From assembly GCA_027488845.1 (NCBI GenBank), contig JAIYBC010000058.1:1-59053 (forward strand): a stretch of DNA of 59,053 nucleotides, in the 5' to 3' direction. Source of the stretch: Verrucomicrobiales bacterium. Lineage in GTDB: Bacteria; Verrucomicrobiota; Verrucomicrobiia; Limisphaerales; UBA9464. Below are positions 19,953-35,245 of the stretch, piece by piece. Within the stretch, counting starts at the first letter, position 1. Each line of letters opens with the position of its first letter. Position numbers and translations under genes: made by a program. The notes below the pieces were generated by a model. It saw only the letters and a program-made list of their open reading frames with translations. It was not told the origin of the DNA and ran no database searches.

Positions 19953-20225
19953 TCAGGCCGCCGGTCCGGAAGCCTTCTCGGCCACGGCCCTGGCCATCGC
20001 CGACACGCTGCCAAGCACCCGCGTGGCGACCTCGCGGTCGGTGACCTTGACGCCGTACTTCTTGTCGAGGGCCACCACCAGCTGCAGGGCGTCCACGGAG
20101 TCGAGCCCGAGGCCCTCCGGACCGAACAGCGGGCGTTCGTCCGTGATCTCCCCGGCCGGGATCGGGAGCATCAGCGTCTCGACCAGCATCGACCGGATCT
20201 CGTTGCGGAGGGCGGTTTCGTCCAT
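19953..20225 (-). CDS. acyl carrier protein of the aryl-polyene-like cluster
   Basis: 90 aa. The phosphopantetheine attachment site is 'LGLDSVDALQLV' (Ser at about residue 43), followed by the usual helix-III region 'KYGVKVTDREVA'. It is the last gene of a minus-strand run KS > CLF-like > ketoreductase > ACP. It is distinct from a housekeeping AcpP in its context and in its long N-terminal helix ending 'MLVETLMLPIPAGEI'. It would carry the growing polyene or aryl chain. About 37 bp separate it from the ketoreductase gene. Confidence 0.9.
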   Translation of the reverse strand: MDETALRNEIRSMLVETLMLPIPAGEITDERPLFGPEGLGLDSVDALQLVVALDKKYGVKVTDREVATRVLGSVSAMARAVAEKASGPAA

Positions 20226-20262: not shown

Positions 20263-20988
20263 TCAAAGGATACCGCCGTCGACCTTGATCTCGGCGCCGG
20301 TGACGTAGGAGGCCTCGGGTCCGGCGAGGAACCGCACCACGGACGCGACCTCATCGGGCCTCCCGAACCGGCGCATGGGTACCGAGGCCACCGCCGCCTG
20401 ACGCCGCTCCGGGGCCATGTGCGAGAGCGCCTCGGTGTCGATGAAGCCCGGGCAGACGGCGTTCACCGTGATGCCCAGCCGGGCCACCTCCTTGGCCAGC
20501 GAATGGGTGAGGCCGACCACGCCGGCCTTCGCCGCGGCGTAGTTGGCCTGGCCCGGGGGCGCGAGCAGCGCGCTGAGCGAGGCGATGTTCACGATCCGGC
20601 CCTGGCGGCGGCTGATCATCCCGCCCAACACGGCCTGGCAGCCATGGAACACGCCGTCGAGGTTGGACGAGATCACCCGGGTCCAGGACTCCACGGGCAT
20701 CGTGGCCAGGAGGCCGTCCTCGGACTCCCCGGCGTTGTTCACGAGCACGTCGAGCCGTCCGTCCGTCGCCTCGATTTCCGTGACCGCCCGGTTCCATGCC
20801 GCGCGGTCGGAGACCTCCAAGGCCACGGTCCGGACCCGGTCGGGGAACTCGTCGGCGAGGGCGTCGGCGTTTTCGCGCCGGTTGCGGATCCCGAGCCAGA
20901 CCCGCGGTGCGGCGGGGCTGGCGAGGAGCGCGCGGGCGATGGCGATCCCGAGCGCGCCGTTGGCGCCGGTGACGAGGCAGACCTGCAT
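20263..20988 (-). CDS. 3-oxoacyl-ACP reductase (ketoreductase)
   Basis: 241 aa short-chain dehydrogenase of the FabG type. It shows the cofactor motif 'TGANGALG', 'VNNAGESEDG', the catalytic Ser in 'NIASLSALLAPPGQA' and the YxxxK motif 'YAAAKAG', plus the C-terminal 'VTGAEIKVDGG'. It would reduce the beta-keto group in each extension cycle of the cluster's acyl chain with NADPH. It sits in the minus-strand run just after the CLF-like gene. It is not a stand-alone housekeeping fabG by context. Confidence 0.9.
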   Translation of the reverse strand: MQVCLVTGANGALGIAIARALLASPAAPRVWLGIRNRRENADALADEFPDRVRTVALEVSDRAAWNRAVTEIEATDGRLDVLVNNAGESEDGLLATMPVESWTRVISSNLDGVFHGCQAVLGGMISRRQGRIVNIASLSALLAPPGQANYAAAKAGVVGLTHSLAKEVARLGITVNAVCPGFIDTEALSHMAPERRQAAVASVPMRRFGRPDEVASVVRFLAGPEASYVTGAEIKVDGGIL

Positions 20989-21002
20989 GGAGGGGGAGGA
21001 GA

Positions 21003-21986
21003 TCACCGCGGAGCCGCGGCCTGAAGCGGCAAGTCGCCGACGGGCACCCGGCGGAACCGTGCGCCGAGGGACTGGAGGTTCGCCCCGCAGACGAGGGCCG
21101 CGGCGGTTTCTGCCTGGCCTTTGCGAATGGCCTCGATGGCGGACACACAGGTCCATCCGCCCGCGGCGCCCAGTCCATCGCCCAACCGCGATTCGACGCC
21201 TTCCGATCGACCGGGAAAACCGTGGGTCGCGAGGTGGTCCACCGGACCGAGTTCCGCCTGGAGGCGCCGGAAATCGCGTTCCGGGTCGCGTCCCGCCGAG
21301 TGGGGCAGGGGATCGGTGATCGCGGTCAGTTCGACCGGACCCGGTTCCGTGCGGAGGAGGATGGCGGCCGATCCCTCGGCGATGTGTCGGCCGCGGGAGA
21401 ACAGCCGGTAGGCCTCGGCCGTGGTCCAATCCGCCTCCTCGGCGGACACCACGAGGCAGGAGCCGACGATGCCGCGTCCCAGCCAGTCCGCGGCGACGGC
21501 GAGCCCTGCGAGGAAGCCGGACTGGTCGCCCACGTGGGTGTCGTTGCGCGCCTCCGTTCCCAGCACCGCCGCGAGGTGGGAGGCGGGGGCGTTGAAGACG
21601 GTTTCCGGGAACAGCATCGGGCTTGCGGTCGCCGGATCCGCCAACGCCTCGGCGAAGAACCGCCGTGAATACTGGACACTTCCACCGTGCACGCAGAGCA
21701 GGATCCCGGTTCCCGGCGCCTGCGGGGCGGCCTGGCCCAGGGCCTCGAGCGCGGCGGCGACGGTGTGGTGGGAGACGGGGCTGGAGCGTCGGAGCCGGGG
21801 ATGCCCCATCCAGGGGAATCGCGCCGGCGGCGGCGGCACGCGGAGGACCGACAGCGCGCGGCCGTCCGGACGTTCGAGCCGGGAGGCCGTGACGTCCCTC
21901 CGCCCCGCGAGCAGTTCGTTGAACGGTTCCACGCCCCATCCGGCGGGGGAGACCACGCCGCAGCCGTGCACGAAGACGCGGCTCAC
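21003..21986 (-). CDS. ketosynthase homologue without active-site Cys (chain-length-factor-like)
   Basis: 327 aa from a GTG that overlaps the stop of the upstream KS gene (GTGA), so the two are co-translated. The thiolase fold is recognisable ('VFVHGCGVVSPAGWGVEPFNELL', 'FNAPASHLAAVLG'). At the nucleophile position it reads 'THVGDQSGFLAG', with Gln in place of Cys, as in the chain-length factors (KS-beta) of type II PKS and aryl-polyene systems. The HGTG motif is also lost ('ATHGFPGRSEG'). It is shorter than the active KS (327 versus 414 aa). It should form a heterodimer with the adjacent KS and set chain length. Confidence 0.8.
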   Translation of the reverse strand: MSRVFVHGCGVVSPAGWGVEPFNELLAGRRDVTASRLERPDGRALSVLRVPPPPARFPWMGHPRLRRSSPVSHHTVAAALEALGQAAPQAPGTGILLCVHGGSVQYSRRFFAEALADPATASPMLFPETVFNAPASHLAAVLGTEARNDTHVGDQSGFLAGLAVAADWLGRGIVGSCLVVSAEEADWTTAEAYRLFSRGRHIAEGSAAILLRTEPGPVELTAITDPLPHSAGRDPERDFRRLQAELGPVDHLATHGFPGRSEGVESRLGDGLGAAGGWTCVSAIEAIRKGQAETAAALVCGANLQSLGARFRRVPVGDLPLQAAAPR

Positions 21987-23227
21987 GGGGACCTCCTCAG
22001 CACGAGGCTCGCGTTGGCGCCGCCGAAGCCGAAGGAGTTGCTCAGCATGTATTCGACGCGGAGGTCCTGCGGACCGGCGAGGATCGGGAACCGGCAGGCC
22101 GGATCCGGCGAGGCGACGCCGCGTCCGGGCGGGAGCCAGCCTCCGTGGAGGGCCATCGTGCACAACGCCGCCTCCACGGCTCCGGCGGCTCCGAGAAGAT
22201 GTCCGACGCAGCCCTTGGTGGAGCTGACCGGGACCTGCGCCGCGGATTCGCCGGCCCAACGCGTGATCGCGGCCGCCTCGGCGGAGTCGTTCAACGGCGT
22301 CCCGGTGCCGTGGGCGTTGAGGTAGCCGACGTCGGCCGGGCCGATCCCGGCCTGTTGGCAGGCCGCGGCCATGGTGGCCAGGGCGGCGTCGCCGGCCGGA
22401 TGCGGCTGCGTGAGGTGGTGGCGGTCCGTGGCCGCGCCGTAGCCGGCCACCTCGGCGAGGATCGCCGCGCCGCGGGCCTGTGCGGACCCGAACGATTCCA
22501 GGGCCAGCACCGCGGCCCCCTCGCCCAACGCCAGGCCGTCGCGGGCGGCGTCGAACGGGCGGCAGGTCGTGGTGCTGAGCGCCTGCAGGGAGTCGAACCC
22601 GGCGAAGACCAGTTGGCTCAGCGCGTCGTAGCCGCCGGTGAGCACCCGTTCCACGTGGCCGGACCGGATCCATTCGAAGGCCTCGCCGACCGCGTTGCTT
22701 CCCGAGGCGCAGGCGTTGGCGATCAGCGTGGTCGGACCCCGGAACCCGAAGGCGGCCATCAGGTCGAGGGCCTGCCGCTGCGGTTGGTAGTGGACCACCC
22801 GTGACGCCTGGCCGCGGAGCATCGCCGGGTTCCTGGAACTGCGCCGGAAGAACTCCTCACCCAGGGCCATGCCGCCGCTGGTCGTGCCCAGCACGAGTGG
22901 AAGCCCCTCGAGCCCCTCCGGCCAGGCGGCCTGCGACCACGCCTCCTCGGCGGCGATGAGCAGCATCCGGCCGGCACGGTCCATACGGCCTTCCTGCCGG
23001 CTTCCCAGGGCGGTCGAGGGCAGCCGTTCCGGGAGATCGACCTCGGCCGCGGACCTGGCGCGCTGCCGGGTCACGTCGAATCCCCGGACCTCGCGGAAGG
23101 CCGTGCGACCCGTCCGGAATCCCTCGGCGTTGACCGCACGGCCGCAGCCCAACGCGGTCACGATGCCCACTCCGGTCACCGCCACGCGGACCGGAACCTC
23201 GGATCGGCGTTGGAAGGGGAAGAGCAT
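21983..23227 (-). CDS. beta-ketoacyl-ACP synthase (active KS)
   Basis: 414 aa, full FabF-like length. Catalytic residues are visible: Cys in 'IANACASGSNAVGEA', His in 'NAHGTGTPLND', Lys/His in 'SSTKGCVGHLLGAAG', and the 'NSFGFGGANAS' end motif. It would condense malonyl-ACP units with an aryl or acyl starter. First gene of the minus-strand run. It is partnered by a Cys-less homologue overlapping its 3' end, the KS/CLF arrangement of aryl polyene and type II PKS systems. About 120 bp separate it from the divergent flavoprotein gene at 23347. Confidence 0.9.
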   Translation of the reverse strand: MLFPFQRRSEVPVRVAVTGVGIVTALGCGRAVNAEGFRTGRTAFREVRGFDVTRQRARSAAEVDLPERLPSTALGSRQEGRMDRAGRMLLIAAEEAWSQAAWPEGLEGLPLVLGTTSGGMALGEEFFRRSSRNPAMLRGQASRVVHYQPQRQALDLMAAFGFRGPTTLIANACASGSNAVGEAFEWIRSGHVERVLTGGYDALSQLVFAGFDSLQALSTTTCRPFDAARDGLALGEGAAVLALESFGSAQARGAAILAEVAGYGAATDRHHLTQPHPAGDAALATMAAACQQAGIGPADVGYLNAHGTGTPLNDSAEAAAITRWAGESAAQVPVSSTKGCVGHLLGAAGAVEAALCTMALHGGWLPPGRGVASPDPACRFPILAGPQDLRVEYMLSNSFGFGGANASLVLRRSP

Positions 23228-23346: not shown

Positions 23347-24900
23347 GTGCAGTCCCAACGCTTCGACGTCGTGATCCTCGGAGGTTCCCTGGCCGGGGCG
23401 GCCGCGGCGCTGCTGCTGAAACGGCAGCGGCCCGGGCTCCGCGTCGCCATCGTCGAGAAGTCCACCTCCTTCCCGCGCCGCGTCGGGGAATCCACGGTCG
23501 AGGTCAGCGCCTACTTCCTCGGACGCGTCCTCGGGCTGACCTCGTTCCTCAACGAGACCCAGCTGCCCAAGCACGGGATGCGCTTCTGGTTCGCCAACGG
23601 CCGGACTGCGGGCCTCACGGATTCCAGCGAGCTGGGCGGACGCTACCTTTCCCGGCTGCCGGCGTGGCAGGTCGACCGGAGCGTCATCGACGAGGAGGTG
23701 CTCCGGAGGGCGGTGGCCGAGGGCGCGACGCTGTTCCGTCCGGCCAAGGTCCGCGACGTCGAACCCGTCCCGGGCGGGATGCAGAAGGTCTCCGTCGAAG
23801 GCGCGGACGGCGTCGTGGAACTCGAGGGCCGCTGGGTGGTGGACGCCACCGGCTTCACCGCGCTCATGGCCCGTCGGATGGGTTGGCTCCGCACCAACCG
23901 GGAGCATCCCACCACCGCCTGTTGGGCCCGCTGGACCGGCGTCGCCGACTGGGACGGCCTGGATCTCTCGAAGCGTTTTCCCGAGTGGAGCCGCGTCTGC
24001 CACGGCATCCGGAACACGGCCACGAACCACATCGTCGGCGACGGCTGGTGGGCCTGGTTCATCCCGTTGAAGGGCGGCGACACCTCGGTCGGGGTCGTCT
24101 TCGACCAGCGCCGCGTCGCCTGGCCCGGCGGAAGCGATTCCCTGGGCCGCCGTCTCAAGTCCTTCCTGTGCGCCCATCCGGTCGCCGCGGAACTCCTGCG
24201 GGACGCGCAGCCCGTCGAGGGCGACGTCCGCTGGCGGGCCAACCTCGCCTACCGGTGCGAACGCACCGCGGCGGACGGCGTTGTGCTCGCGGGCGACGCC
24301 GCAGGCTTCATCGATCCGTTCTACAGCCCGGGCATGGACTGGCTGGGCTACACCGTGACCCGCGCCGTGGAGCTGGTAACGAAGTCCCTCGACGGCGAGC
24401 CGGTGGAACCCCTGGTGGCGGCGCACAACCACGACTTCGACATCAGCTATCGGCGCTGGTTCGACGCCGTGTACCGGGACAAGTACGCGTGGATGGGCGA
24501 CTTCGAGCTCCTGCAGATCGGGTTCCGTCTCGACCTCGGCCTCTACTACATGGGGGTGGTTTCCCAGCCGCTGCGGGACGGGGCCCCGGCCTACCGCAAC
24601 CCCGTGTTCAGCCTGCGGACGTCGGAGATCCCGTACCGGCTCATGTCCACCTACAACCGGCGACTCGCCCGGATCGCGGACGAACGCCGCAGGCGCGGGA
24701 CCTTCGGACGCCACAACGACCGGCACCGCTATCTGCTGAACGGATTCCTGCCCGACAACTCGACCGGCAAGCCGGTGCTCGGGGCCGTGGCGGATTGGCT
24801 GCGCCTGGAGTTGCGTGAAGGGTGGCGGACCTGGTTCGGGCGCGGGGCCGAGGCGCCGACGTCGGAGGTGCCGGTTCAGCCCGCCGCCGTGGCGAGGTGA
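23347..24900 (+). CDS. FAD-dependent halogenase-family flavoprotein
   Basis: 517 aa from a GTG at 23347 that places 'QRFDVVILGGSLAGAAAALLL' (FAD dinucleotide fold) at the N-terminus. It carries 'RRVGESTVE', 'LPKHGMRFWFANG', the halogenase signature WxWxIP as 'GWWAWFIPLKGG', and 'VLAGDAAGFIDPFYSPGMDWLG'. That set is typical of tryptophan/phenol halogenase-like proteins (PF04820) found in aryl-polyene and flexirubin clusters, where they halogenate or otherwise oxidise the aryl head. Whether this one halogenates is not decided by sequence. Its 3' end overlaps the convergent radical SAM gene by 25 bp. Confidence 0.8.
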   Translation: MQSQRFDVVILGGSLAGAAAALLLKRQRPGLRVAIVEKSTSFPRRVGESTVEVSAYFLGRVLGLTSFLNETQLPKHGMRFWFANGRTAGLTDSSELGGRYLSRLPAWQVDRSVIDEEVLRRAVAEGATLFRPAKVRDVEPVPGGMQKVSVEGADGVVELEGRWVVDATGFTALMARRMGWLRTNREHPTTACWARWTGVADWDGLDLSKRFPEWSRVCHGIRNTATNHIVGDGWWAWFIPLKGGDTSVGVVFDQRRVAWPGGSDSLGRRLKSFLCAHPVAAELLRDAQPVEGDVRWRANLAYRCERTAADGVVLAGDAAGFIDPFYSPGMDWLGYTVTRAVELVTKSLDGEPVEPLVAAHNHDFDISYRRWFDAVYRDKYAWMGDFELLQIGFRLDLGLYYMGVVSQPLRDGAPAYRNPVFSLRTSEIPYRLMSTYNRRLARIADERRRRGTFGRHNDRHRYLLNGFLPDNSTGKPVLGAVADWLRLELREGWRTWFGRGAEAPTSEVPVQPAAVAR

Positions 24901-25877
24901 TCGGCGAGGCGGACCTTCGAGACCTCGAGACCCTCGTCGGAGATCGCGGCAAGGATCCGTTCCTCGTTCATGATGAACCGGTCTCTGCGGTACAGCAGGT
25001 AGTTCTCGCGCTCGCCGTCCGGGGTGAGGTTGATCGTGCAGAGGTTGGCGCCGGTCGCGAGGCCGCGGCGGTACCCGGTGCCGGGGCCGGCGATGTTCAG
25101 CGCGCTCACCGCTGGGATCACCCAGTCCGGACGCATCAGCCGCAACGCCGCCATGGCGTTCAGGGTCTGCCCGATGCCGGCGGCCGTTGCGGCCGTCAGC
25201 GGCGTCGATTCGCCGGGCACGAACGGACTCACGCTGCAGCCGATCAGGGGCAGCGAATCGGCCAGCCGGAAGTTGCCCAAGGCCGCATCGGCGTCCATGC
25301 CGGGAAGCCCGCAGATGAAGCCCGAGCTGACCTTCCATCCGCGTTCCGCGAGCCAGCGGATGTGCGCGACGCGTTCCTCCAGCGTGCCCGGCGCCTGGAG
25401 CGCGCGGTAGCGCTCCGGGTCGGCCAGCTCGAACTTGATGATGTAGGTCGAGGCCCCGGCCTCGGACAACGCGTCGGTGATGTCGGCGGAAAGCGTTCCC
25501 AGGCAGACGCTGATCCCGAGCGGCGTCTCCCTGCGGAGCGTCCGCACCAGCGGCAACACCACCTCGCGGGCCGCGACCGGGTCCTCGCCGGCCTGGATGT
25601 TGATGTCGGTGATGCTGGCCGGACGGTGGTGGACGAGCAGTTCGGCGAGTGCGTCGTGGGTCGCTCGGTAGCGTCCGAGCGTCCGGTTGTCGCGCCGCAT
25701 GCCGCAGTAGTGGCAGTTCTCGCGGCAGAAGTTCGAGACCTCGACGACGCCCCTCACGAACACGGACCGGCCGAAGCCAGCCCGGGCGGACGCGGCCGCG
25801 CGGGCGTGGAGGAGCTCCTGGGCCTCTCCTGAGGCCTCGAGATCCTCGGCGGCGGGAAACCAGCGTCGATGCACCAT
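24876..25877 (-). CDS. HydE/BioB-like radical SAM protein
   Basis: 333 aa. The [4Fe-4S] motif is CxxxCxxC in 'EVSNFCRENCHYCGMRR' (about residues 50-62). The pattern 'INIQAGEDP', 'ISVCLGTLS', 'IIKFELADPERYRAL' and 'GWKVSSGFICGLPGMD' follows the HydE/PylB/BioB-type barrel rather than ThiH or NifB. Its C-terminal region continues with 'IGCSVSPFVPGEST' and 'NIAGPGTGYRRGLATGAN'. No hydrogenase gene is in the window, so a role in [FeFe]-hydrogenase maturation is unlikely here. Its place inside the aryl-polyene-like cluster suggests a tailoring or starter-forming reaction. Convergent with the flavoprotein gene, with overlapping 3' ends. Confidence 0.8.
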   Translation of the reverse strand: MVHRRWFPAAEDLEASGEAQELLHARAAASARAGFGRSVFVRGVVEVSNFCRENCHYCGMRRDNRTLGRYRATHDALAELLVHHRPASITDINIQAGEDPVAAREVVLPLVRTLRRETPLGISVCLGTLSADITDALSEAGASTYIIKFELADPERYRALQAPGTLEERVAHIRWLAERGWKVSSGFICGLPGMDADAALGNFRLADSLPLIGCSVSPFVPGESTPLTAATAAGIGQTLNAMAALRLMRPDWVIPAVSALNIAGPGTGYRRGLATGANLCTINLTPDGERENYLLYRRDRFIMNEERILAAISDEGLEVSKVRLADHLATAAG

Positions 25878-25983
25878 CCGGAGATACTGTGTGCATCCCC
25901 ATGGGTGCAAGGTCGGGCTCCTCGGGAATCGCCGTCCGAGGAGAGGGCTCGACAGCCGCGGGCCGCAGCCGGGAGGCTCCGGC

Positions 25984-26673
25984 GTGTCCCGCGTCCGCGA
26001 CCTGACCATCGCCGTGATCCCGTGCCTCGACGAGGCCGGCCGCGTCGGCGCGGTCGTCCGCGGGCTCTCGGGGACCGTGTCGCGGATCCTGGTGGTGGAC
26101 GACGGCTCTTCGGACGGCACCGCCGCGGAGGCCGAATCGGCTGGGGCGATGGTCCTGCGGCATTCGAAGCCGCTCGGGAAGGGGGCCGCGCTGGCCGCCG
26201 GATGGCGACGTGCGCGCGAGCTGGGAGGCGAGTGGATGCTGATGCTGGACGGCGACGGCCAGCACGATCCCGCGGAGGCCCCGGCCTTCATCGCGGCGGC
26301 GGAGACGGGGGCCCGCCTGGTGGTGGGGAACCGCATGCCGGGTTCGCGGGCGATGCCCGTGGTGCGCCGTTGGACCAACCGTTGGATGAGCCGGCGCATC
26401 TCGGCATTGGCCGGGCTCGAGGTGCCGGACTCGCAGTGCGGCTACCGCCTGGTGCACCTGCCTTCCCTGGAAGCCCTCGCGCTCCGTTGTCGCGGATACG
26501 AGATCGAGTCCGAGATGACCGTGGCCTTCGCGCGGGCGGGACATCCGATGGCCTTCGTCCCGGTCCGGGTGCGCTATGGCGGGGAGCGGAGCAAGATCTC
26601 GCCGTTGCGCGACACGGCGCGGTGGTTCCGGTGGTATCTCCGGACCCGGTCCGCTCAGGACGGACGCCGGTAG
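25984..26673 (+). CDS. family 2 glycosyltransferase
   Basis: 229 aa from the GTG at 25984; upstream in-frame sequence looks noncoding. It has the GT-A signature 'IAVIPCLDEAG', 'VVDDGSSDGT', 'GKGAALAAGWRRA', the DxD region 'MLDGDGQHDP' and 'DSQCGYRLV', as in polyprenyl-phosphate or dolichol-phosphate glucosyl/mannosyltransferases. No membrane helix was seen. In aryl-polyene clusters GT2 enzymes attach a sugar to the lipid or aryl moiety. It converges on the methyltransferase gene with a 19-bp overlap. Confidence 0.85.
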   Translation: MSRVRDLTIAVIPCLDEAGRVGAVVRGLSGTVSRILVVDDGSSDGTAAEAESAGAMVLRHSKPLGKGAALAAGWRRARELGGEWMLMLDGDGQHDPAEAPAFIAAAETGARLVVGNRMPGSRAMPVVRRWTNRWMSRRISALAGLEVPDSQCGYRLVHLPSLEALALRCRGYEIESEMTVAFARAGHPMAFVPVRVRYGGERSKISPLRDTARWFRWYLRTRSAQDGRR

Positions 26674-27344
26674 GAGAGCAGGATGTGGGCGGAATGCTCC
26701 GTCCAGACCCGGGCCGAATCCAGTCCGGCCTCCTTCGCCAGGCGACGCCACTCGGCGGCGCGCCAGCCGCGTCGGACGGAAAGCAGTCCGTCGTTGCGGA
26801 ACTCCCGCGGCGCCCGGCAGGCCCGCAGCAACGCCCAGAGCATCGCGAGGAACAGCACGCTGCGCTGCATGTCGCAGATCAGCACCGCGCCCCGCGAGAC
26901 CCGCGCCGCCTCCTGGAAATGCCGGACCACGTCCTCCTCGGAGCCGAGGTGGTGGGTCATGGTCGAGGCGATGACCGCGTCGAAGTGGCCGTCCGGGAAG
27001 GGGAGCAGCGTGGCCGAGCCGACCGTCACGCGGAGGTTGGGATTGCGGTTGCAGGCGTGCGCTGAGAGGTCGAGGTCGGTGAACCGCCATTCCCAGCCCC
27101 GTCCCGCGGCCCATGCGGTGAGCGTCCGGCCGAGCTCGCCTTCGCCCGCGCCGATGTCGAGCACCGACATCGAGCGGCAGGTGGACTCCGGCAGCAGGCG
27201 CGGCAGCCAGACGCGGAACGGCCGCTCGAAGCGGGTGATGCGGTTGATCCGCTGCAGCCAGGCGTAGTGGGCCCGCAGCTCCGACGCGGTCCGCTCGGGC
27301 GCGTCGAAGTATTCGGCTTGCGCGCTACGCTCGCTCAAAAACAT
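26655..27344 (-). CDS. class I SAM-dependent methyltransferase
   Basis: 229 aa. Motif I 'VLDIGAGEGELG' (about residue 62-73) starts the Rossmann fold. 'FTDLDLSAHAC' and 'FDAVIASTMTHHLG' mark motifs II and IV of a Methyltransf_11-type enzyme. A hydrophobic helix 'VLFLAMLWALLRAC' near residue 165 suggests membrane contact. It could O- or C-methylate the aryl head, as in aryl polyenes. Divergent from the small membrane protein gene with only 18 bp between start codons, so their promoters must lie within neighbouring coding sequence. Confidence 0.85.
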   Translation of the reverse strand: MFLSERSAQAEYFDAPERTASELRAHYAWLQRINRITRFERPFRVWLPRLLPESTCRSMSVLDIGAGEGELGRTLTAWAAGRGWEWRFTDLDLSAHACNRNPNLRVTVGSATLLPFPDGHFDAVIASTMTHHLGSEEDVVRHFQEAARVSRGAVLICDMQRSVLFLAMLWALLRACRAPREFRNDGLLSVRRGWRAAEWRRLAKEAGLDSARVWTEHSAHILLSYRRPS

Positions 27345-27362: not shown

Positions 27363-27740
27363 ATGCCCGATGCGCCACAAGATGAGCCGGCCCCAACCAC
27401 GGGAGGACCACGTTGGATCCCATGGATCCGTCGTGGTGCGGCCACGGTCCTGATCGCGCTCGCCGTGGGCACGGGCTCCTCGGCGGCGATGCGTTGGGAC
27501 TCGCGGATCGCGACCCCGCCGGGCTTCGGACGCGGGCTGCTCCACGGTGCGCTCATGCCGTTGGCCTGGCCGACCCTGCTCGCCGGCCGCGACCAGACCG
27601 TCTACGCCGAACGCAACGAGGGACGTCCCTACAAGCTGGGCTACTCGATGGGGGTCAACGTGTGTGGGCTCGCGTTCTTCGGATGGTTCTTCGCGCGGGT
27701 CCGCAGGTGGACCCGGCGGGAGGCGGGGCTGAGGACATGA
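27363..27740 (+). CDS. conserved two-helix membrane protein of the cluster
   Basis: 125 aa from the ATG at 27363. A proline-rich N-terminus is followed by a membrane helix (about 25-42), then a conserved-looking loop with 'GFGRGLLHGALMPLAWPTLLAGRDQTVYAERNEGRPYKLGYSMGVNVCG' features and a second helix leading to a basic tail. No named family. Its stop overlaps the ATG of the next flavoprotein gene (ATGA), so it belongs to that plus-strand operon. A partner of the flavoprotein or exporter is a reasonable guess. Confidence 0.7.
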   Translation: MPDAPQDEPAPTTGGPRWIPWIRRGAATVLIALAVGTGSSAAMRWDSRIATPPGFGRGLLHGALMPLAWPTLLAGRDQTVYAERNEGRPYKLGYSMGVNVCGLAFFGWFFARVRRWTRREAGLRT

Positions 27741-28999
27741 AGGTCCATGACGTCGTCGTGGTCGGCGGCGGCCCCGCCGGGAGCTGCGCGGCCACGCTCC
27801 TCGCCCGGTCCGGGCACACCGTGCTGGTGCTGGAACGCGAGCGTTTCCCGCGGTTCCACGTCGGCGAGTCGCTGTTGCCCTACAACACGGAGATCTTCGA
27901 CGAAATGGGCCTCGGGCCGAAGCTCGCCGCGGCCGGATTCCCCGTGAAGCGGGGCGCGCAGTTCCACCTCGGCAACGGCGCGAAGGGGACGTCCTTCGTC
28001 TTCCGCAACGGCCGCTTCACCCGCCATGGCGAGGCCTACCAGGTCGAACGCTCCCGCTTCGACGAGATCCTCCTCCGACACGCCGCCGAGTGCGGTGCGG
28101 AGGTCCGTGAGGGGGTCGCGGTCGAGTCGGTCGCCACGGACGCCGACGGCGTCACCGTCCGGACCTCCGACGGCGAGACCCACCGCGGCCGGTTCCTGGT
28201 CGACGCCTCCGGACGCGGCAACCTCACCGGGAACCAGGAGGGGGTGAAGGTGATGAACCCCAGGCTGCGCAAGGTCGCGGTCTTCGCGCACTTCGAGGGA
28301 GTCCGGCTGGATTCCGGGACCAAGGGCGGCGACACCGTCATCGTCCGCCAGGAACGCCACTGGTTCTGGCTCATCCCGCTGCGGGTCGACGAAGGCGGCT
28401 CGGGCCGCGTGAGCGTGGGCGTCGTGATGGACCGTGACGACTTCGCCGCGTCCGGCGGGACCGGCGAGGCGCTGCTCGGACGCCTCGTCGCCGAAAGCCC
28501 GCCGGTGGCGGAGAGGCTGCGGTCGGCGCGGCGGGAGTCGGGGGTGCATGTCACCAGCGACTTCAGCTACCGCAACACCCGCTTCTGGAGTCCGCGCTGC
28601 GTCCGGGTGGGCGACGCCGCGGGCTTCATCGACCCGATCTTCTCCAGCGGCGTCTTCCTCGCGATGTTCTCCGCGCGTGCGGCGGCGCGTGCGGTGCGGG
28701 ACTCGATCCGGGCCGGGGACGACGGCGCCGCGGCGTTCGCCGTGTACGAAACGCGCATCCGGTCGGCCCTTTCGATCTACCAGGAGATGGTCGACGGCTT
28801 CTACACGCAGCCGTTCATGGAGCTGTTCCTGGAGCCCCGGGCGAAGCTGGACCTCGCGGCCGCGGTGAACGCGGTCCTCGCCGGGGAGCTGGAAGGCGGC
28901 TGGAAGCTGCGTTGGCGCATGTGGCTGTTCTTCCGGTTGGTCCGGCTCCAGGCGCGGTTCCCGCTGGTGCCCCGCTTCTCCTTCGCTCCCGCCGCATGA
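27737..28999 (+). CDS. FAD-dependent oxidoreductase, halogenase/geranylgeranyl-reductase-like
   Basis: 420 aa. The N-terminal 'DVVVVGGGPAGSCAATLLARSGH' binds FAD, followed by 'ERFPRFHVGESLLPYN', 'VERSRFDEILLRHA', 'FLVDASGRGN' and the GD motif 'VRVGDAAGFIDPIFSSGVFLAMFSA'. In place of the WxWxIP halogenase signature it has 'HWFWLIPL', close but not identical. Proteins of this type are regular members of aryl-polyene/flexirubin clusters. It is the second flavoprotein here and shorter than the first (420 versus 517 aa). It overlaps its neighbours at both ends by 4 bases. Confidence 0.8.
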   Translation: MKVHDVVVVGGGPAGSCAATLLARSGHTVLVLERERFPRFHVGESLLPYNTEIFDEMGLGPKLAAAGFPVKRGAQFHLGNGAKGTSFVFRNGRFTRHGEAYQVERSRFDEILLRHAAECGAEVREGVAVESVATDADGVTVRTSDGETHRGRFLVDASGRGNLTGNQEGVKVMNPRLRKVAVFAHFEGVRLDSGTKGGDTVIVRQERHWFWLIPLRVDEGGSGRVSVGVVMDRDDFAASGGTGEALLGRLVAESPPVAERLRSARRESGVHVTSDFSYRNTRFWSPRCVRVGDAAGFIDPIFSSGVFLAMFSARAAARAVRDSIRAGDDGAAAFAVYETRIRSALSIYQEMVDGFYTQPFMELFLEPRAKLDLAAAVNAVLAGELEGGWKLRWRMWLFFRLVRLQARFPLVPRFSFAPAA

Positions 29000-29469
29000 A
29001 CGCCGGACGTTCCGCGGTCCCCGGATGGCCCGTGCTGGGACTCGCCCTCCTCGTCGCCGGATGCGCCTTCCCGGGCCGCCGACTTCCTCCCTGGGACCTG
29101 GCGTCGCCGGGATGGACGGTCACGGAGATGTCGGCGGCGTGGAGGCCTGCGTCGGATTCGCCGGAGTTGGCCGGTGAGCTGTTGGTCGCGCGGAACACGG
29201 ACGGCTCGCGGCTGGTGCAGTTCGCGAAGCAGGGGGTCCCCGTGGTCGTGGCCCGATCCGGTCCGTCGGGTTGGGAGATCCGTTCCCCGTTCCGCTCCGC
29301 GTCCGCCGCGGGGCGTGGGGCGGCACCCAAGTCGATCGTCTGGTTCCGGGCGACCGCGCCGAAGGAACTGCCGGAGGCGCCGGAAGGCTGGAAGGCCGTG
29401 GCGTCGGAACAGGGAGGCTGGATCCTCGAACGGCCTGTCACCGGCGAACGCCTGGAGGTGGCGCCGTGA
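28996..29469 (+). CDS. putative outer-membrane lipoprotein of the cluster
   Basis: 157 aa. The signal peptide ends in a lipobox 'LLVAGC' (Cys at about residue 23), so it should be lipidated. The mature part is short with beta-strand character and 'WDLASPGW', 'RLVQFAKQGVPVVVA', 'SIVWFRATA'. No family recognised. It overlaps the FAD gene (ATGA) and the exporter gene (GTGA), placing it in the export block of the aryl-polyene-like operon. Confidence 0.75.
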   Translation: MNAGRSAVPGWPVLGLALLVAGCAFPGRRLPPWDLASPGWTVTEMSAAWRPASDSPELAGELLVARNTDGSRLVQFAKQGVPVVVARSGPSGWEIRSPFRSASAAGRGAAPKSIVWFRATAPKELPEAPEGWKAVASEQGGWILERPVTGERLEVAP

Positions 29470-32400
29470 GGCGCGGTTGGCTGTGGCTGCCGGTGTTGGC
29501 GGTGGTCCTCGCGGGGCTGTTCCGTCTCCGCTTCGACACGGAACCGCTGGCGCTGCTGCCGTCCGACGTCCCTTCGATCGCCGCCCTGCGCGACCACCAG
29601 CGGCTCTTCCCGGGATCACGCGAGCTGGTGGTGACACTCGAGTCCGAGGCGCCGGATCACCTCGCGGCCTTCGCCGAGGCGCTCGCGGTCGACCTGCGGT
29701 CGGCCCCGGACCTCGTCGCCGGCGCCCGTTGGCGTGCGCCGTTCCGCGATTCCCTCGTGGAGAACGTGGCCTGGATGTGGATGCAGCGGCCCCGTTCCGA
29801 ACTGCTGGCGTTGATGGAACGCTGGGAGCCGCGGAGGTTCGCGGAGGAACTGGCCGGGGTCCGGGAACGGATGGCCACCTCGCTCGACCCGATGGACATC
29901 GCCCGCGCCGGCTACGATCCCGCCGGTCTCCTGTCGTTCCCGGGCGCCACCCGGGGCGGCCTCTCCGGCGGCGACGGCGAGGATGCCGGTTTCGCCGACG
30001 CCACGGGCTCGTTCCGGATCGTTCTGGTGGAACCGGTCCGTCCGGCGATGCCCTATCGCGAGGCGACGCTCTGGCTGGAGCGGGTGCGGCAGCGGATCGC
30101 CGCGGTGGAGGCGCGGTTCCGGTCCGCGAATCCCGGCGTGCGTCTCCAGGTCGCCTACACCGGCGGTCCCGCCTTCCTGACCGAGGTCGCCAACGGGATG
30201 GAAGGCGACCTGCAATCCTCGCTCGGCGCCACGGTGGCGGCCATCGCGCTCCTCTTCTGGTTCAGCCACCGCTCGCTGCGCCCGTTGGGCCTCCTGCTCG
30301 CGGGCCTCGGACTCACCTTCGTGGCGACCCTGGCCCTCGGTGGCTTGGTGTTGGGGACGTTGAACGTCATCAGCTGCGGCTTCGGCGCCGTGATGATGGG
30401 GCTGGTGGTCGACTACGGTCTCGTGGGCTACCAGGAGCTGCGGGCGAATCCCGGCCGGAGCCTGGCGGCGCTGCGCGGCGAGGTGCTTCCCGGGATCGCC
30501 TGGTCCGCGGTCACGACGGCCGGGACGTTCCTTTCCCTGGGATTCGCCGGCCTGCCCGGGCTTGCCGAGTTGGGATATCTGACCGCCATCGGCCTGGCGG
30601 TCGGCGCGGCGGTGATGCTGTTCTGGTTCCTTCCTCGGGTCCATGCGTCGACACCGCCGGCTTCGAACGGGACGCCCGCACCAGCCCAACCCGACGCCGC
30701 AGCGGGAAGGTGGGCTGCGGTGGCCACGGTGATCGTGGTCTCGGCCTGCGCCGCGATCCTGTTCGCGAAGGGTTGGCCGCGGACCGAAGGCGGTGCGGCG
30801 CCGCTGCGTCCCCGACGGAGCCCCGCCTACGAGGCGATGGCCCGCATGCAGGAACGGCTCGGCGGCAACCGCGTCACCTCCTGGCTGCTGGTGGACGGCC
30901 GGGACCCGGTGGAGGTCCGGGATCGGATGACGTCCCTGCGTCCGGCGCTGGAACGCCTCAAGGCCGAAGGCCGGATCGAAACCTTCCGGACACCGTCCGC
31001 GTTCTGGCCCGATCCCGCCGCGGCGTCCACGAACCGCGACCTCCTCCGTCCGCTGTCGGCGCGTGCCGCCCTGTTGCCGGAGACCCTGGAGGCGGCGGGG
31101 TTCGCCGATGCCGCGGAAGGACTCGTGCGGGGCGTCACCGACGTCTGGCGCCGTTGGGATTCGGCCGGGGTTCCCCTCTGGCCGGACAACGAAGGTGCCC
31201 GTTGGCTCGCCGGAGTGTTCGGGGCACGGCGTCCGGACGGTTCCTGGGTCGGATTGGCCACGGTCGAGTCGGCTTCGGAAGGCATGACGCTGACGGGGCT
31301 GCCCCAGGGCGTCGCGGTGGCCGGGTGGGACCGCATCGGGCCGGATCTGCTGGGACGGGTCCGCGGACGCGTGGCGTGGCTGACCGCGGCGATCGGCGTG
31401 GTGTTGGCCGGATGCCTTTGGCTGGCCTTCCGGCGTTGGATCGAGGTGCTGCTCGCCCTCGCGGCGTTGTCCCTGAGCTTCTTCGTCCTGATTGCCTTGA
31501 TGAGCCTGCTCGGCGCCTCCTGGAACCTGCTCAACCTCGTCGCGGTGCCGCTGTTGCTGGGCACGTCCGTCGACTCCGCGATCCATGTCCAACTCGCGCT
31601 GCGCCGACATCAGGGCGACCTGCGCGCCATGCGGCAATCGACCGGGAGGGCGTTGCTGTTGTGCGCCGGGGCGAACGTCGCCGGATTCGGGTCGTTGGCC
31701 TGGAGCAGCAACGCCGGGCTCGCCTCGCTCGACCTCGTCTGCGCCGGCGGCGTCCTCTGCGTGATGGCCGTGATGCTCCTGCTCCTCCCGGGCTGGTGGC
31801 TGCGGTGGGCGGGACCTGCGGCTGGCGACGGTTCCGCGGCGGGTCCCTCGGCGCTCTACGGCGGAGGGGCCTGGGCCTTGGCCAGCGCGTTGGTCCGTTG
31901 TGTCCCTTGCCGCCTCCTCGTCGGTCCGGCCCGTGTGCTGGGCCGGCTTCATGCGGCCTTGCGACCGGAGCGGAGACGCCTTGTCGCGGCGAATCTCCAG
32001 CCGTTGCTCGGGGACGACGCCCGCGCCGCCGACCGTGCCGCCTGGCGTTGCTACGCCGAGTTCGCCGAGAAGCTGGTCCACCTCTGGAGACTGGAGTCGG
32101 GAGCCGATGACGGCGGCCCGCTCAAGACATCCGGGGATTGGGGCGCCTTCGAGAAGGCCCGGGCGGAAGGCCGTGGCATCCTCCTCGTCACCCCGCATCT
32201 CGGGAATTGGGAGCTGGGTGGTCCGCTGCTCGCCGGCTTCGGGGTGAGGCCCCTGGTGCTGAGCGCGGAGGAACCGGATCCCCGGCTCACGGCCGCCCGC
32301 GCCGCGGCGAGGGCGCGGTTCGGCGTCGACACCCTCGTCGTGGGTTCGGATCCGTTCGCGTTCGTCGGCGTCATCCGGCGGCTCCAGGAGGGCGGGGTGG

Positions 32401-32723
32401 TGGCCTTGCTCGTGGACCGACCTGTGGCCGGAACCGGTGTCGAGGTGACGTTGTTCGGACGCCCCTTCCTCGCCAGCGTCGCCGCCGCCGAACTCGCCCG
32501 AGCCACCGGCTGCCGGATCCTGCCGGTGTACGTCGTGCGCGAAGGCCGCAGCCACCGGGCGCACGCGCTGGAACCGGTCGAGTACGACCGCGCGTCGCTC
32601 GGCAACCGCGCTGCCCGCCAGGAACTCACGGGCCGGATCCTGCGTGTCTTCGAACCGGCCCTGCGCCAGTTTCCCGACCAATGGTTCCACTTCATCCCGG
32701 TGTGGAAGGAGCCGCCACGATGA
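29466..32723 (+). CDS. MMPL exporter fused to LpxL-type acyltransferase
   Basis: 1085 aa from a GTG. The first about 790 residues form an RND/MMPL transporter: one helix at 4-20, a large periplasmic loop, helices at about 245-400, a second loop, and helices at about 635-780 ('VAVPLLLGTSVDSAIHVQLALRRHQ'). After a Gly/Ser linker, residues about 800-1080 are a lipid A lauroyl/myristoyl-acyltransferase domain with the HX4E motif 'TPHLGNWELGG' at about residue 910. In aryl-polyene clusters these are usually two separate genes; here they are one polypeptide. The acyltransferase end would sit in the cytoplasm or inner leaflet. It would couple acylation of the product to export. Confidence 0.9.
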   Translation: MRRGWLWLPVLAVVLAGLFRLRFDTEPLALLPSDVPSIAALRDHQRLFPGSRELVVTLESEAPDHLAAFAEALAVDLRSAPDLVAGARWRAPFRDSLVENVAWMWMQRPRSELLALMERWEPRRFAEELAGVRERMATSLDPMDIARAGYDPAGLLSFPGATRGGLSGGDGEDAGFADATGSFRIVLVEPVRPAMPYREATLWLERVRQRIAAVEARFRSANPGVRLQVAYTGGPAFLTEVANGMEGDLQSSLGATVAAIALLFWFSHRSLRPLGLLLAGLGLTFVATLALGGLVLGTLNVISCGFGAVMMGLVVDYGLVGYQELRANPGRSLAALRGEVLPGIAWSAVTTAGTFLSLGFAGLPGLAELGYLTAIGLAVGAAVMLFWFLPRVHASTPPASNGTPAPAQPDAAAGRWAAVATVIVVSACAAILFAKGWPRTEGGAAPLRPRRSPAYEAMARMQERLGGNRVTSWLLVDGRDPVEVRDRMTSLRPALERLKAEGRIETFRTPSAFWPDPAAASTNRDLLRPLSARAALLPETLEAAGFADAAEGLVRGVTDVWRRWDSAGVPLWPDNEGARWLAGVFGARRPDGSWVGLATVESASEGMTLTGLPQGVAVAGWDRIGPDLLGRVRGRVAWLTAAIGVVLAGCLWLAFRRWIEVLLALAALSLSFFVLIALMSLLGASWNLLNLVAVPLLLGTSVDSAIHVQLALRRHQGDLRAMRQSTGRALLLCAGANVAGFGSLAWSSNAGLASLDLVCAGGVLCVMAVMLLLLPGWWLRWAGPAAGDGSAAGPSALYGGGAWALASALVRCVPCRLLVGPARVLGRLHAALRPERRRLVAANLQPLLGDDARAADRAAWRCYAEFAEKLVHLWRLESGADDGGPLKTSGDWGAFEKARAEGRGILLVTPHLGNWELGGPLLAGFGVRPLVLSAEEPDPRLTAARAAARARFGVDTLVVGSDPFAFVGVIRRLQEGGVVALLVDRPVAGTGVEVTLFGRPFLASVAAAELARATGCRILPVYVVREGRSHRAHALEPVEYDRASLGNRAARQELTGRILRVFEPALRQFPDQWFHFIPVWKEPPR

Positions 32724-33433
32724 TCCGACGTCTCCATGAATCCGTCTCCGGCGCGGGACTCACCCTGCTGCTGCTGGGCGTGCTGCTGTCGTCGCTCCGG
32801 CTTTCGGGCGCGGAGGTCTCCGCCTCCGACGCGGTGCTCGACGCCTGGCTCAAGGCGACCGGGAACCTGGCCACCCTGGAGGCCCGGGTGGTCCAGACCC
32901 GGCATCTCAAGGCGCTGCGCCAGCCGCTGGTCTCGACCGGACGCGTCTGGTTCGCCACCCCGGGCCGGTTCCGCTGGGAACTCGGCGAACCTCCGCGTTC
33001 CGTCGCGGTGCGTTCCGGCGAGGACCTGCTGGTGCTCTCACCCGGCCTGCACCGCGCGGAACGACATCGGCTCGACCCGGCCGCGGAAGGCCCGGTGAAG
33101 GAGTTGCTGGGACTGCTGGACGTCGGTTTCCCACGCGACGCGGCGGAGTTCCGCGCGCGGTTCGACGTGCTCGAGGTCCGGACCAACGCCGCGGCCACCA
33201 CCCTGCGCCTGCGCCCGCGCGCCGCGGCCGCCCGACGGATGATGCCGGGCGTCTCCGTGGACCTGGGCCTGGGTGACTGGCGGTTGCTGGCCACCGAGAT
33301 GACCTTCGCCGACGGCTCGCGCCTGCGATCCGAGTTCTCCGCCATGATCACCAACGCCCCCGTCGATCCCGCGCGCTTCTGCACCGAGGTTCCCGAAGGC
33401 TGGAAGACCGAAACCCGGGGAGGCGGATCGTGA
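32720..33433 (+). CDS. LolA-like outer-membrane lipoprotein carrier
   Basis: 237 aa with a signal peptide (about 10-30). The mature part follows the LolA/LppX half-barrel pattern: 'LDAWLKATGNLATLEARVVQTRHLKALRQPLVSTGRVWFATPGRFRWEL', then paired strands. LolA-type proteins carry hydrophobic cargo across the periplasm, and aryl-polyene clusters contain such a paralogue. It overlaps both its neighbours by 4 bases (ATGA at the start, GTGA at the end), so it is co-translated with the MMPL exporter and the dehydratase. Confidence 0.8.
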   Translation: MIRRLHESVSGAGLTLLLLGVLLSSLRLSGAEVSASDAVLDAWLKATGNLATLEARVVQTRHLKALRQPLVSTGRVWFATPGRFRWELGEPPRSVAVRSGEDLLVLSPGLHRAERHRLDPAAEGPVKELLGLLDVGFPRDAAEFRARFDVLEVRTNAAATTLRLRPRAAAARRMMPGVSVDLGLGDWRLLATEMTFADGSRLRSEFSAMITNAPVDPARFCTEVPEGWKTETRGGGS

Positions 33434-33864
33434 GCGTCGAGCTCGTCGCGGCGCTGGCCGCGTTGCCGCATGGGCCGGAGTTCCGTTTCGTGGACGCGCT
33501 CCTTTCCTTGGATCCCGGACGCTCGGGTACCGGCCAATACCGGTTGCCGGAAGACGCCGTCTTCCTGCGCGGCCATTTCCCCGGTGAACCGATCCTGCCC
33601 GGCGTCCTGCTGGTCGAGGCGGTGGCGCAGTTGGGCGGGGTCGTCGCCCAGTCGGATCCCGCGGTCGTTCCGCTCGCGGGGCTCAAGCTCGCCGGCATCC
33701 GGGCCGCGAAGATCCAGGGCACCGCGCGGCCCGGCGAGACGGTGAGGCTCGAGGCGACGGTGTCGGGCCGGATGGGCGGCCTCGTGCAGGTCGCGGGATC
33801 GGCCTCGGTGGACGGACGCCCCATCCTGCGGTGCGAACTGACCCTGGCCGGCGACGTGGTCTGA
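33430..33864 (+). CDS. FabZ/FabA-like 3-hydroxyacyl-ACP dehydratase
   Basis: 144 aa from a GTG overlapping the LolA-like gene. The hot-dog fold signature with the catalytic His is 'FLRGHFPGEPILPGVLLVEAVAQLGG', as in FabZ. It would dehydrate the 3-hydroxyacyl-ACP and leave the double bonds of a polyene, since no enoyl reductase is encoded nearby. The absence of an enoyl reductase fits a conjugated product. Confidence 0.9.
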   Translation: MSVELVAALAALPHGPEFRFVDALLSLDPGRSGTGQYRLPEDAVFLRGHFPGEPILPGVLLVEAVAQLGGVVAQSDPAVVPLAGLKLAGIRAAKIQGTARPGETVRLEATVSGRMGGLVQVAGSASVDGRPILRCELTLAGDVV

Positions 33865-33985: not shown

Positions 33986-35245
33986 TCAGCCCTCGCCCAA
34001 CAGCATCGCCCGCCAGACGTGACGTGGGCGCTTGCCGCGGCCGTCCGTCCCGAGCGCCGGTCGGTGCCACCAACGCCGTGGAACTTCCCAGGCGGACAGG
34101 TTCGACGACAGGAACGCACGCAGGTCCGAGTCCTCGATCGGTTCCCGGGTGCTGTACACCAATCCCACGGCCTCGCCCCGGCCCGTGGAATCGGGCACCC
34201 CGAAGGCGAGGCAATCCAGCACCGCGGGATGCCGGAGCGCGGCCTGTTCCACGGCGCCCGGGAACACCTTGCGCCCGGCCACGTTGATGACGTCGCCCAC
34301 GCGTCCGCGGAGCCAGAGACGTCCCTCGTCGTCGCGGTGGACGAGGTCGGAAGAGCGGTAGGTGCCGTCCGCGAGGCGGGGATCGGGTTCGGGCCAGTAG
34401 GTGGAGGCCACGGCCGGGCCGCGGACGACCAGCGTGCCGTCCTCGTCCACCGACGCCTCCACGCCCTCGAGGGGCAGGCCGACGCAGGTCGGATCGGTCC
34501 GGGGGACGTCGGATCGGTCGAAGGCGATCCCGCCGCATTCGGAGGCGCCGAGGAAGTTGTGGATCTTGAGGCCGTGCCGTTCGAAGACCTCCTGTTCCAG
34601 GGGCAGCGGCAGCGGCGCACCGGCGGAAACGGCCAGGCGCACCTGGCGCGGGATGAGATCGGCCTCGTGCCATGAGCGCCACAGCGCCGGGACCGCGGGA
34701 AGGGTGATCGATTCCCATGGGGCGGCCGCCGCGGCGACCGATCGTGGGAGCGGGGAATCGACGAGCACCAGGGGGATCCCGTGCAGCAGGAGCGGGGTCA
34801 CGAGGTTCGAGAAGCCGTAGCTGTGCGCCAACGAAAGGACGCCGAGGTTGGGCCATTCGGGCCGCAGACCCATGGTGCGGACGATCTGGTCGGCGTCGGC
34901 GGCGACCTGGGCGTCGTCGAGGGCGACGACCCTGGGGGTGCCGGTGGAACCCGAGGTGAGCTTGAGCAGGGAGAAGCCGGGGATCGGACGGGGCAGAACG
35001 GGGGCGGACTGTCCGGGTTCGAGGGGGCAGATCGGGAGCCCCGCGCGCCACGCCCGGAGCACCGCGAGGAGGAAGCCGACGTCACGGCCCTGCGGGTGGG
35101 AAAGTCCTTCGGAGGCGGATGCGGGCGCGGCGTCGGCTTCGGCCTCGAGTTCGGAGAAGGTCCAGGAACGGCCCGAGGTGGCGTCGTGGACCGCCAACCT
35201 CGTGGCATTCCTCCGGGCGGTCTCGCGCCATCGATTCTCCAGCAT
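33986..35245 (-). CDS. AMP-dependent acyl/aryl ligase
   Basis: 419 aa. The adenylate-forming fold is shown by the A3 loop 'LLKLTSGSTGTPR', 'NFLGASECGG' (A5-like) and 'YRSSDLVHRDDEGRLWLRGRVGD' (A7/A8). The C-terminal subdomain is present ('VINVAGRKVFPGAVEQAALRHPAV', 'GTDGRGKRPR'). It is short at the N-terminus compared with 500-aa ligases, as aryl-polyene ligases often are. It would load an aromatic or fatty acid starter onto the ACP. Divergent from the lipoprotein gene at 35285 with 39 bp between start codons. Confidence 0.85.
   Translation of the reverse strand: MLENRWRETARRNATRLAVHDATSGRSWTFSELEAEADAAPASASEGLSHPQGRDVGFLLAVLRAWRAGLPICPLEPGQSAPVLPRPIPGFSLLKLTSGSTGTPRVVALDDAQVAADADQIVRTMGLRPEWPNLGVLSLAHSYGFSNLVTPLLLHGIPLVLVDSPLPRSVAAAAAPWESITLPAVPALWRSWHEADLIPRQVRLAVSAGAPLPLPLEQEVFERHGLKIHNFLGASECGGIAFDRSDVPRTDPTCVGLPLEGVEASVDEDGTLVVRGPAVASTYWPEPDPRLADGTYRSSDLVHRDDEGRLWLRGRVGDVINVAGRKVFPGAVEQAALRHPAVLDCLAFGVPDSTGRGEAVGLVYSTREPIEDSDLRAFLSSNLSAWEVPRRWWHRPALGTDGRGKRPRHVWRAMLLGEG

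Follow-up and report, generated by a model that had tools for sequence, protein, structure and literature searches.

The 59 kb window analysed here, that is, the whole stretch of verrucomicrobial DNA under study (69% GC; it is contig C56 in an assembly that spans 5.39 Mb and is 95.4% complete), encodes a radical S-adenosylmethionine (SAM) enzyme, hereafter rSAM, within an aryl polyene (APE)-like gene cluster. We propose that this enzyme uses radical chemistry to produce or reshape the small acid that serves as head group (starter) of the polyene. That rSAM has a HydE/PylB-type fold, belongs to a clade of its own and is tied to a cluster containing genes for a beta-ketoacyl synthase (KS), a CLF-like protein, a ketoreductase (KR), an acyl carrier protein (ACP) and an AMP ligase we regard as very probable; for the whole reading, in which the head-group role has to hold jointly with the fold, the clade and the pathway tie, we estimate a probability of about 0.42. 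The protein represents a new clade in a new pathway setting within a known enzyme group.

The first-pass annotation of this DNA had reported the rSAM open reading frame (ORF) and its CxxxCxxC site without naming a strand; both are present, and the gene lies on the minus strand. The three cysteines of the motif, C51-R-E-N-C55-H-Y-C58, are invariant across 39 aligned members of the family (the window protein among them), and the Radical_SAM model of Pfam matches the protein with 58.6 bits against a cut-off of 29.5. Gene coordinates in the window come from a simple codon-usage caller; as the matches of relatives start near the first residues of the 333-residue protein, a longer mechanical ORF reaching 26399 is not the gene. 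Judged by its relatives the ORF is no chance product, a single scan having returned 57 loci of the same family with 95-99% identity in the closest ones. The gene does stand between a halogenase-like flavoprotein (FlavA) and a GT2 glycosyltransferase, as had been described, but overlapping 3' ends exist on one side only: rSAM and FlavA are convergent and share 25 bases (24876-24900), whereas GT2 is divergent from rSAM. The mechanical GTG start of GT2 at 25891 is probably too early, with the true start further in.

Profile and structure comparisons agree with the earlier assignment of the site and barrel to HydE/PylB-like enzymes. Among the NCBIfam models the highest scores were those of HydE (TIGR03956, 169.8 bits, cut-off 254.6), PylB (TIGR03910, 107.6 bits, cut-off 348.2) and BioB (TIGR00433, 63.3 bits, cut-off 225), each below its cut-off. 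An AlphaFold2 model of rSAM (pLDDT 92.7, pTM 0.91) is closest to Thermotoga maritima HydE (TM 0.85, Z 40.5, root-mean-square deviation 2.3 over 326 residues), followed by PylB (TM 0.82, Z 34.3), BioB (TM 0.79-0.80, Z 31.5) and ThiH (Z 29.9). The enzyme shares a fold group with PylB and BioB, but lies below both cut-offs and differs from them in gene context. In a tree of 57 rows (30 of the family, 8 HydE with a HydG neighbour, 14 further HydE-like and 5 ungrouped; ten rows, namely nine of the family and L008, were omitted for thinning here and in the residue comparison), the 30 family members formed a single clade with support of 100/99, separate from the 22 HydE-type rows. The rows of BioB and of a protein on contig C57, perhaps ThiH, sit on very long branches, and the deep root is not resolved in this tree.

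A comparison of the same 30 family and 22 HydE-type rows, in the numbering of T. maritima HydE, uncovered several positions that are fixed differently in all members of the two sets: Arg159 is replaced by K148 of rSAM, a Met by G213, a Thr-Thr pair by V257-S258 and another Met by T281. In addition, a Ser found in 21 of the 22 HydE-type rows is C125 throughout the family, and the position of Arg155, an Arg in 22/22 HydE-type rows, has an Arg in 0/30 family rows. The exchanged positions Arg155, Arg159, Met and Thr-Thr we take to be the lining of the HydE substrate cavity. What is kept, besides the predicted fold, is the set of cluster cysteines in the CxxxCxxC motif, the residues Q95, E98 and D99 of a Q95-x-G-E-D motif, and E150, which equals Glu161 of T. 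maritima HydE. A change of substrate with retention of the SAM chemistry would look like this pattern.

The link of rSAM to the polyene pathway is strong. A pattern-based scan of one genome per species (84,980 species) recovered 57 loci that belong to the family and one outlier (L091, 33%), 58 in all, and the titles of 53 of the 57 name groups of Verrucomicrobiota. Many of these loci are short; at least one cluster gene was found at 46 of them and a polyketide synthase, ligase or export gene at 34, with individual counts of 30 for KS, 29 for GT2, 27 for CLF, 21 for FlavA and 17 each for the AMP ligase and a SAM-dependent methyltransferase (MT). Where KS was missing from the locus (27 family loci and L091), an orthologous KS (55% or more) was encoded elsewhere in 20 of the 28 genomes and was not found in the other eight (L037, L057, L059, L068, L082, L083, L090 and L091). 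In a sample of 293 genomes of the order, the window genome included, 78 have both rSAM and KS, 6 only rSAM, 37 only KS and 172 neither (Fisher p 9e-35, kinship ignored), and within the window's own family the 36 sampled genomes divide into 17 with both and 19 with neither, with no discordant case. The first-pass annotation had placed the gene in the pathway from its position and overlapping 3' ends and had called for a neighbourhood survey; with KS in 78 of 84 rSAM genomes, its placement holds. Furthermore, the association extends beyond the order: three genomes that belong elsewhere in the class (G257, G078 and G265, with rSAM identities of 59, 53 and 49%) encode rSAM beside KS, a CLF-like protein, ACP, a second halogenase-like flavoprotein (FlavB), FabZ and an AMP ligase, and none of them has an MT or FlavA of its own within 20 kb of rSAM. 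This implies that the cluster retains rSAM more constantly than it does MT or FlavA. The G265 match (L146:7605-8641) is split across two frames, by sequencing error or because the gene is broken.

A direct comparison with the 18 genes of the APE cluster of Escherichia coli CFT073 showed that KS, KR, ACP, GT2, the MMPL exporter and the dehydratase of the window are related to their counterparts there (24-37% identity). The core of the window cluster is, by gene similarity, APE-like, and an aryl head group is a prediction from this similarity. The two clusters differ in that none of the 18 CFT073 genes carries a radical SAM annotation, and in that MMPL is a separate gene in CFT073 and is fused with an acyltransferase in the window. 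They may also differ in the source of the head group: according to passages of a study of the E. coli system (PMC8253772), the 4-hydroxybenzoic acid starter of the APE comes from the chorismate lyase UbiC, and its loading or activation by ApeH is predicted. For MT, FlavA and the CLF-like protein there was no match at E 0.1 among the CFT073 genes, and FlavB gave a chance-level match only.

In the mechanism that we propose, rSAM would be a dedicated enzyme of a polyene pathway resembling type II PKS/FAS systems. Its [4Fe-4S] cluster and SAM would yield a 5'-deoxyadenosyl radical, as in HydE, PylB and BioB, and this radical would abstract hydrogen from a free small molecule within the barrel; cleavage or rearrangement of that molecule would then give the head-group acid or its precursor. 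The AMP ligase would load this acid onto ACP for extension by KS and CLF, and MT and FlavA would decorate the head group where they are present. Some sister clusters might have B12-binding radical SAM proteins for the corresponding step. HydE, PylB and BioB act on small free molecules, and a substrate of this kind is suggested for rSAM on that ground; a guess at its identity, drawn from ThiH and NosL, would be tyrosine or some other aromatic amino acid. The head-group acid or its precursor is favoured as the product because the gene lies at KS and frequently close to the ligase, because the genome has no aromatic ammonia lyase, and because rSAM outlasts the decorating genes. Ammonia lyase was itself considered as a source of the starter and rejected, with no match in the window genome and matches in only 4 of 115 KS genomes. 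Of the earlier proposal of a HydE/PylB-like enzyme that belongs to the polyene pathway and could supply the starter or bring about a rearrangement of the aryl ring, the enzyme type (as distinct from HydE itself) and the pathway stand, and the reaction is a predicted role only.

For 32 of the 37 KS genomes that lack rSAM we compared the stretches around KS (L093-L124); several are cut by contig ends, and the locus maps show only ORFs conserved between loci. In 17 of the 32 there are B12-binding radical SAM proteins, one or two of which directly precede KS in 12 stretches (in L107 a small ORF intervenes), and in 7 of these 12 a divergent GT2 lies on the far side, so that they occupy the place of rSAM (compare L119 with L046). 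The first member of the tandem pair in L113 (L113:6319-7728) belongs to TIGR04072 (390.4 bits, cut-off 360), a family named 'lipid biosynthesis B12-binding/radical SAM protein', and the second (L113:7725-9080) is nearest to BchE and HpnJ, far under cut-off, this pair being the only one scanned. Both rSAM and a tandem B12 pair are present in L066 (1195-4102) and L084 (7486-10250). The window genome has no TIGR04072 match over the 360-bit cut-off (best 93 bits).

Across the 115 KS genomes, 70 have rSAM only, 28 a TIGR04072-like match only, 8 both and 9 neither (p 3e-12); with over-cut-off matches alone these numbers become 72, 16, 6 and 21 (p 1.6e-5), kinship being ignored in both cases. In 11 of the 16 over-cut-off genomes with TIGR04072 only, the match is on the KS contig, a few kb away, and in family f2 a TIGR04072-like match occurs in none of 9 KS genomes with rSAM vs 6 of 8 without. 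On a tree of KS the rSAM labels interleave, the starred branches forcing at least 5 label changes; for example, L067 (rSAM) and L093 (B12) are sisters with support of 96, as are L084 (both) and L119 (B12) with 97. The interleaving makes several exchanges between rSAM and the B12 proteins likely. That the two systems are interchangeable suppliers of one step of the polyene pathway, each having replaced the other several times, is a far more tentative proposal, which we consider possible but doubtful. We also observed a phytoene-desaturase/carotenoid-isomerase-like protein in the KS cluster of eight loci without rSAM (L102:5347-6894, L111:4562-6109 and six others; the L102 copy alone was scanned) and of none with it.

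Several observations weigh against the head-group proposal and its extension to the B12 proteins. As regards the pathway tie, 11 of the 57 family loci are without a cluster gene in the count above, two of them within stretches of 18-21 kb (L058 and L076), and rSAM is absent from 37 of the 115 KS genomes, though many genomes are incomplete. As regards the role, the small free substrate is suggested by analogy with HydE, PylB and BioB, the AMP ligase is only weakly like that of CFT073 (21%) and the CLF-like protein has no counterpart there, and the ammonia lyase searches cover only half of a starter gap, as chorismate lyase was not searched. As regards the alternation, 15 of the 32 rSAM-less KS stretches have no B12 protein, and in 5 of the 17 that do it follows KR and does not precede KS. 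Twelve of the 28 TIGR04072-only genomes have matches of 328-353 bits, below the cut-off of 360, and in ten of these the match and KS are on different contigs; all six matches of family f2 are likewise under the cut-off. In five of the six over-cut-off genomes with both systems, rSAM, TIGR04072 and KS stand side by side; these cases fit joint action as well as exchange, and show that both can coexist in one cluster. Neither radical system was found in 9 of the 115 KS genomes, again with many genomes incomplete, and the KS tree, a quickly built one, shows 29 of its 60 inner branches as open.

The main rival to head-group supply is that rSAM acts as a tailoring enzyme on the polyene chain or on the completed lipid, by cyclisation, desaturation or cross-linking, as proposed for the radical SAM proteins of ladderane-type clusters. 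According to passages of the work that describes them (PMC2649909), such type II fatty acid synthesis (FASII) clusters encode radical SAM and phytoene-dehydrogenase-like proteins, a phenylacetyl-CoA ligase and a glycosyltransferase, and pre- or post-processing of polyunsaturated chains is suggested for the radical SAM proteins. The parts of that paper on Kuenenia and Desulfotalea reveal a likeness to the window cluster in the combination of radical SAM genes, a CoA ligase, a glycosyltransferase and an oxidoreductase in a FASII-like setting. The difference is that TIGR04072, which is named after the ladderane clusters, matches the B12 protein of the sister clusters and not the enzyme of the window; the Kuenenia proteins were not compared directly. 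Chain tailoring would also accord with the fact that the place before KS in sister clusters can hold a member of this 'lipid biosynthesis' family and with the phytoene-desaturase-like protein at the eight rSAM-less loci. However, the nearest folds, HydE, PylB and BioB, use small free molecules, and rSAM has no B12-binding domain; the chemistries of the two systems need not match. Overall, we consider chain tailoring rather unlikely.

Somewhat less likely still is that rSAM belongs to the cluster but has another task, such as making the precursor of a decoration or maturing a partner protein. The 32 KS stretches without rSAM contain no MT match at E 1e-6 and no FlavA of 500 bits or more (best 82 bits), which would be consistent with a shared decoration module, but MT is found at only 17 and FlavA at only 21 of the 57 rSAM loci, many of them short, and in other orders the clusters retain rSAM with neither gene within 20 kb. 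That the gene serves an unrelated pathway and is merely carried along in the neighbourhood appears improbable: the 11 loci without a cluster gene, the absence of KS from 6 of the 84 rSAM genomes and five genomes with a second copy away from any cluster gene speak for it, but rSAM tracks KS without exception inside the window's family, and KS is present elsewhere in the genome in 20 of the 28 cases in which the rSAM locus lacks it.

A genuine HydE, acting as maturase of the H-cluster of [FeFe]-hydrogenase, was rejected as next to impossible. HydE is indeed the top curated-family and structure match, but rSAM scores below the HydE cut-off, falls in a separate clade with exchanged residues, and comes from a genome without a PF02906 match or a HydG over cut-off. 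The statement of the first-pass annotation that no hydrogenase gene is present extends from the window to the whole assembly, 95.4% complete, in which nothing matched PF02906 ([FeFe]-hydrogenase) at E <= 0.001. The phylogeny that it recommended did not place rSAM firmly with genuine HydE, and of the two further maturases whose presence it had named as refuting, HydG stayed below the cut-off in the window genome, where the best candidate, the C57 protein that is perhaps ThiH, reached 170 bits against a cut-off of 312 (HydF was not searched). In the order, [FeFe]-hydrogenase (E <= 1e-20) was detected in 16 of 293 genomes, in 1 of the 84 with rSAM (G538) vs 15 of the 209 others.

Few chemistries are known for the HydE/PylB/BioB group, and the exchanged residues together with the pathway home of rSAM mean that its substrate can be sought directly. 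No description of such an enzyme in a polyene cluster was found in the PubMed Central listings and passages covered. These results also suggest that verrucomicrobial APE-like clusters may arrive at the head group in a different way. The partial alternation of rSAM with B12 proteins of ladderane type allows a comparative approach to a step that the passages of PMC2649909 leave open for ladderane-type clusters. If the two systems were truly interchangeable, the HydE-fold enzyme would be a new catalytic type, one that makes a polyene head group by radical chemistry, and the aryl-polyene-like and ladderane-type clusters would join into one pathway family.

Table 1. The rSAM gene, its neighbours in the window cluster, and second rSAM copies in other genomes
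Feature	Position	Strand	Basis or remark
ACP, acyl carrier protein	19953..20225	minus	37% and 33% identity to two Ape ACPs
KR, FabG-type ketoreductase	20263..21006	minus	35% identity to ApeQ
CLF-like protein	21003..21986	minus	Named mainly by position after KS; no Pfam match, FabF match weak
KS, beta-ketoacyl synthase	21983..23227	minus	34-35% identity to ApeR/ApeO
FlavA, halogenase-like flavoprotein (PF04820)	23347..24900	plus	Convergent with rSAM
rSAM, HydE/PylB-fold radical SAM enzyme, 333 aa	24876..25877	minus	Pfam, NCBIfam, alignment, AlphaFold2 model, tree
GT2 glycosyltransferase	25891..26673	plus	28% identity to CFT073 GT2
MT, SAM-dependent methyltransferase	26655..27344	minus	Gene call and comparison between loci
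FlavB, second halogenase-like flavoprotein	27737..28999	plus	Gene call
MMPL exporter fused with LpxL-type acyltransferase, single ORF	29466..32723	plus	MMPL 24% identity to CFT073
LolA-like protein	32702..33433	plus	CFT073 match not significant, E 0.011
FabA/FabZ-type hotdog dehydratase	33430..33864	plus	32% identity to CFT073 dehydratase
AMP ligase, candidate activator of starter acid	33986..35245	minus	21% identity, E 8e-5, to CFT073 acyl-CoA synthetase
g35318, conserved 259-aa protein	35318..36097	plus	No Pfam match; in 24 loci, often beside AMP ligase
Second rSAM copy	L149:6459-7541
Second rSAM copy	L150:4515-5639
Second rSAM copy	L151:7147-8244
Second rSAM copy	L152:2271-3452
Second rSAM copy	L153:7188-8300

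The second rSAM copies of five genomes (Table 1) are 53-58% identical to that of the window and have no cluster gene in the 5.7-15.4 kb around them; each of the five stretches has a response-regulator-like ORF, and these copies make up a paralogue lineage. A small conserved protein (L130:10736-11416 and 14 other loci) adjoins FlavA, rSAM or KS, with rSAM present at 14 of the 15 loci; its L130 copy has no NCBIfam match. The titles of L045, L055, L056 and L082 name Proteobacteria, Klebsiella pneumoniae or Acidobacteria (those of L036, L053 and L061 Akkermansia muciniphila), although both the gene and any cluster observed there are of verrucomicrobial type, and the labels of these metagenome-assembled genomes are probably wrong. 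Phages and plasmids were considered as carriers of rSAM and rejected, as their records gave distant matches only (3 phage and 10 plasmid records, all <60% identity). On a Bradyrhizobium plasmid (L140:5746-6966), a distant radical SAM protein (30.5%) is encoded beside a coproporphyrinogen-III-oxidase-family protein and a glycosyltransferase.

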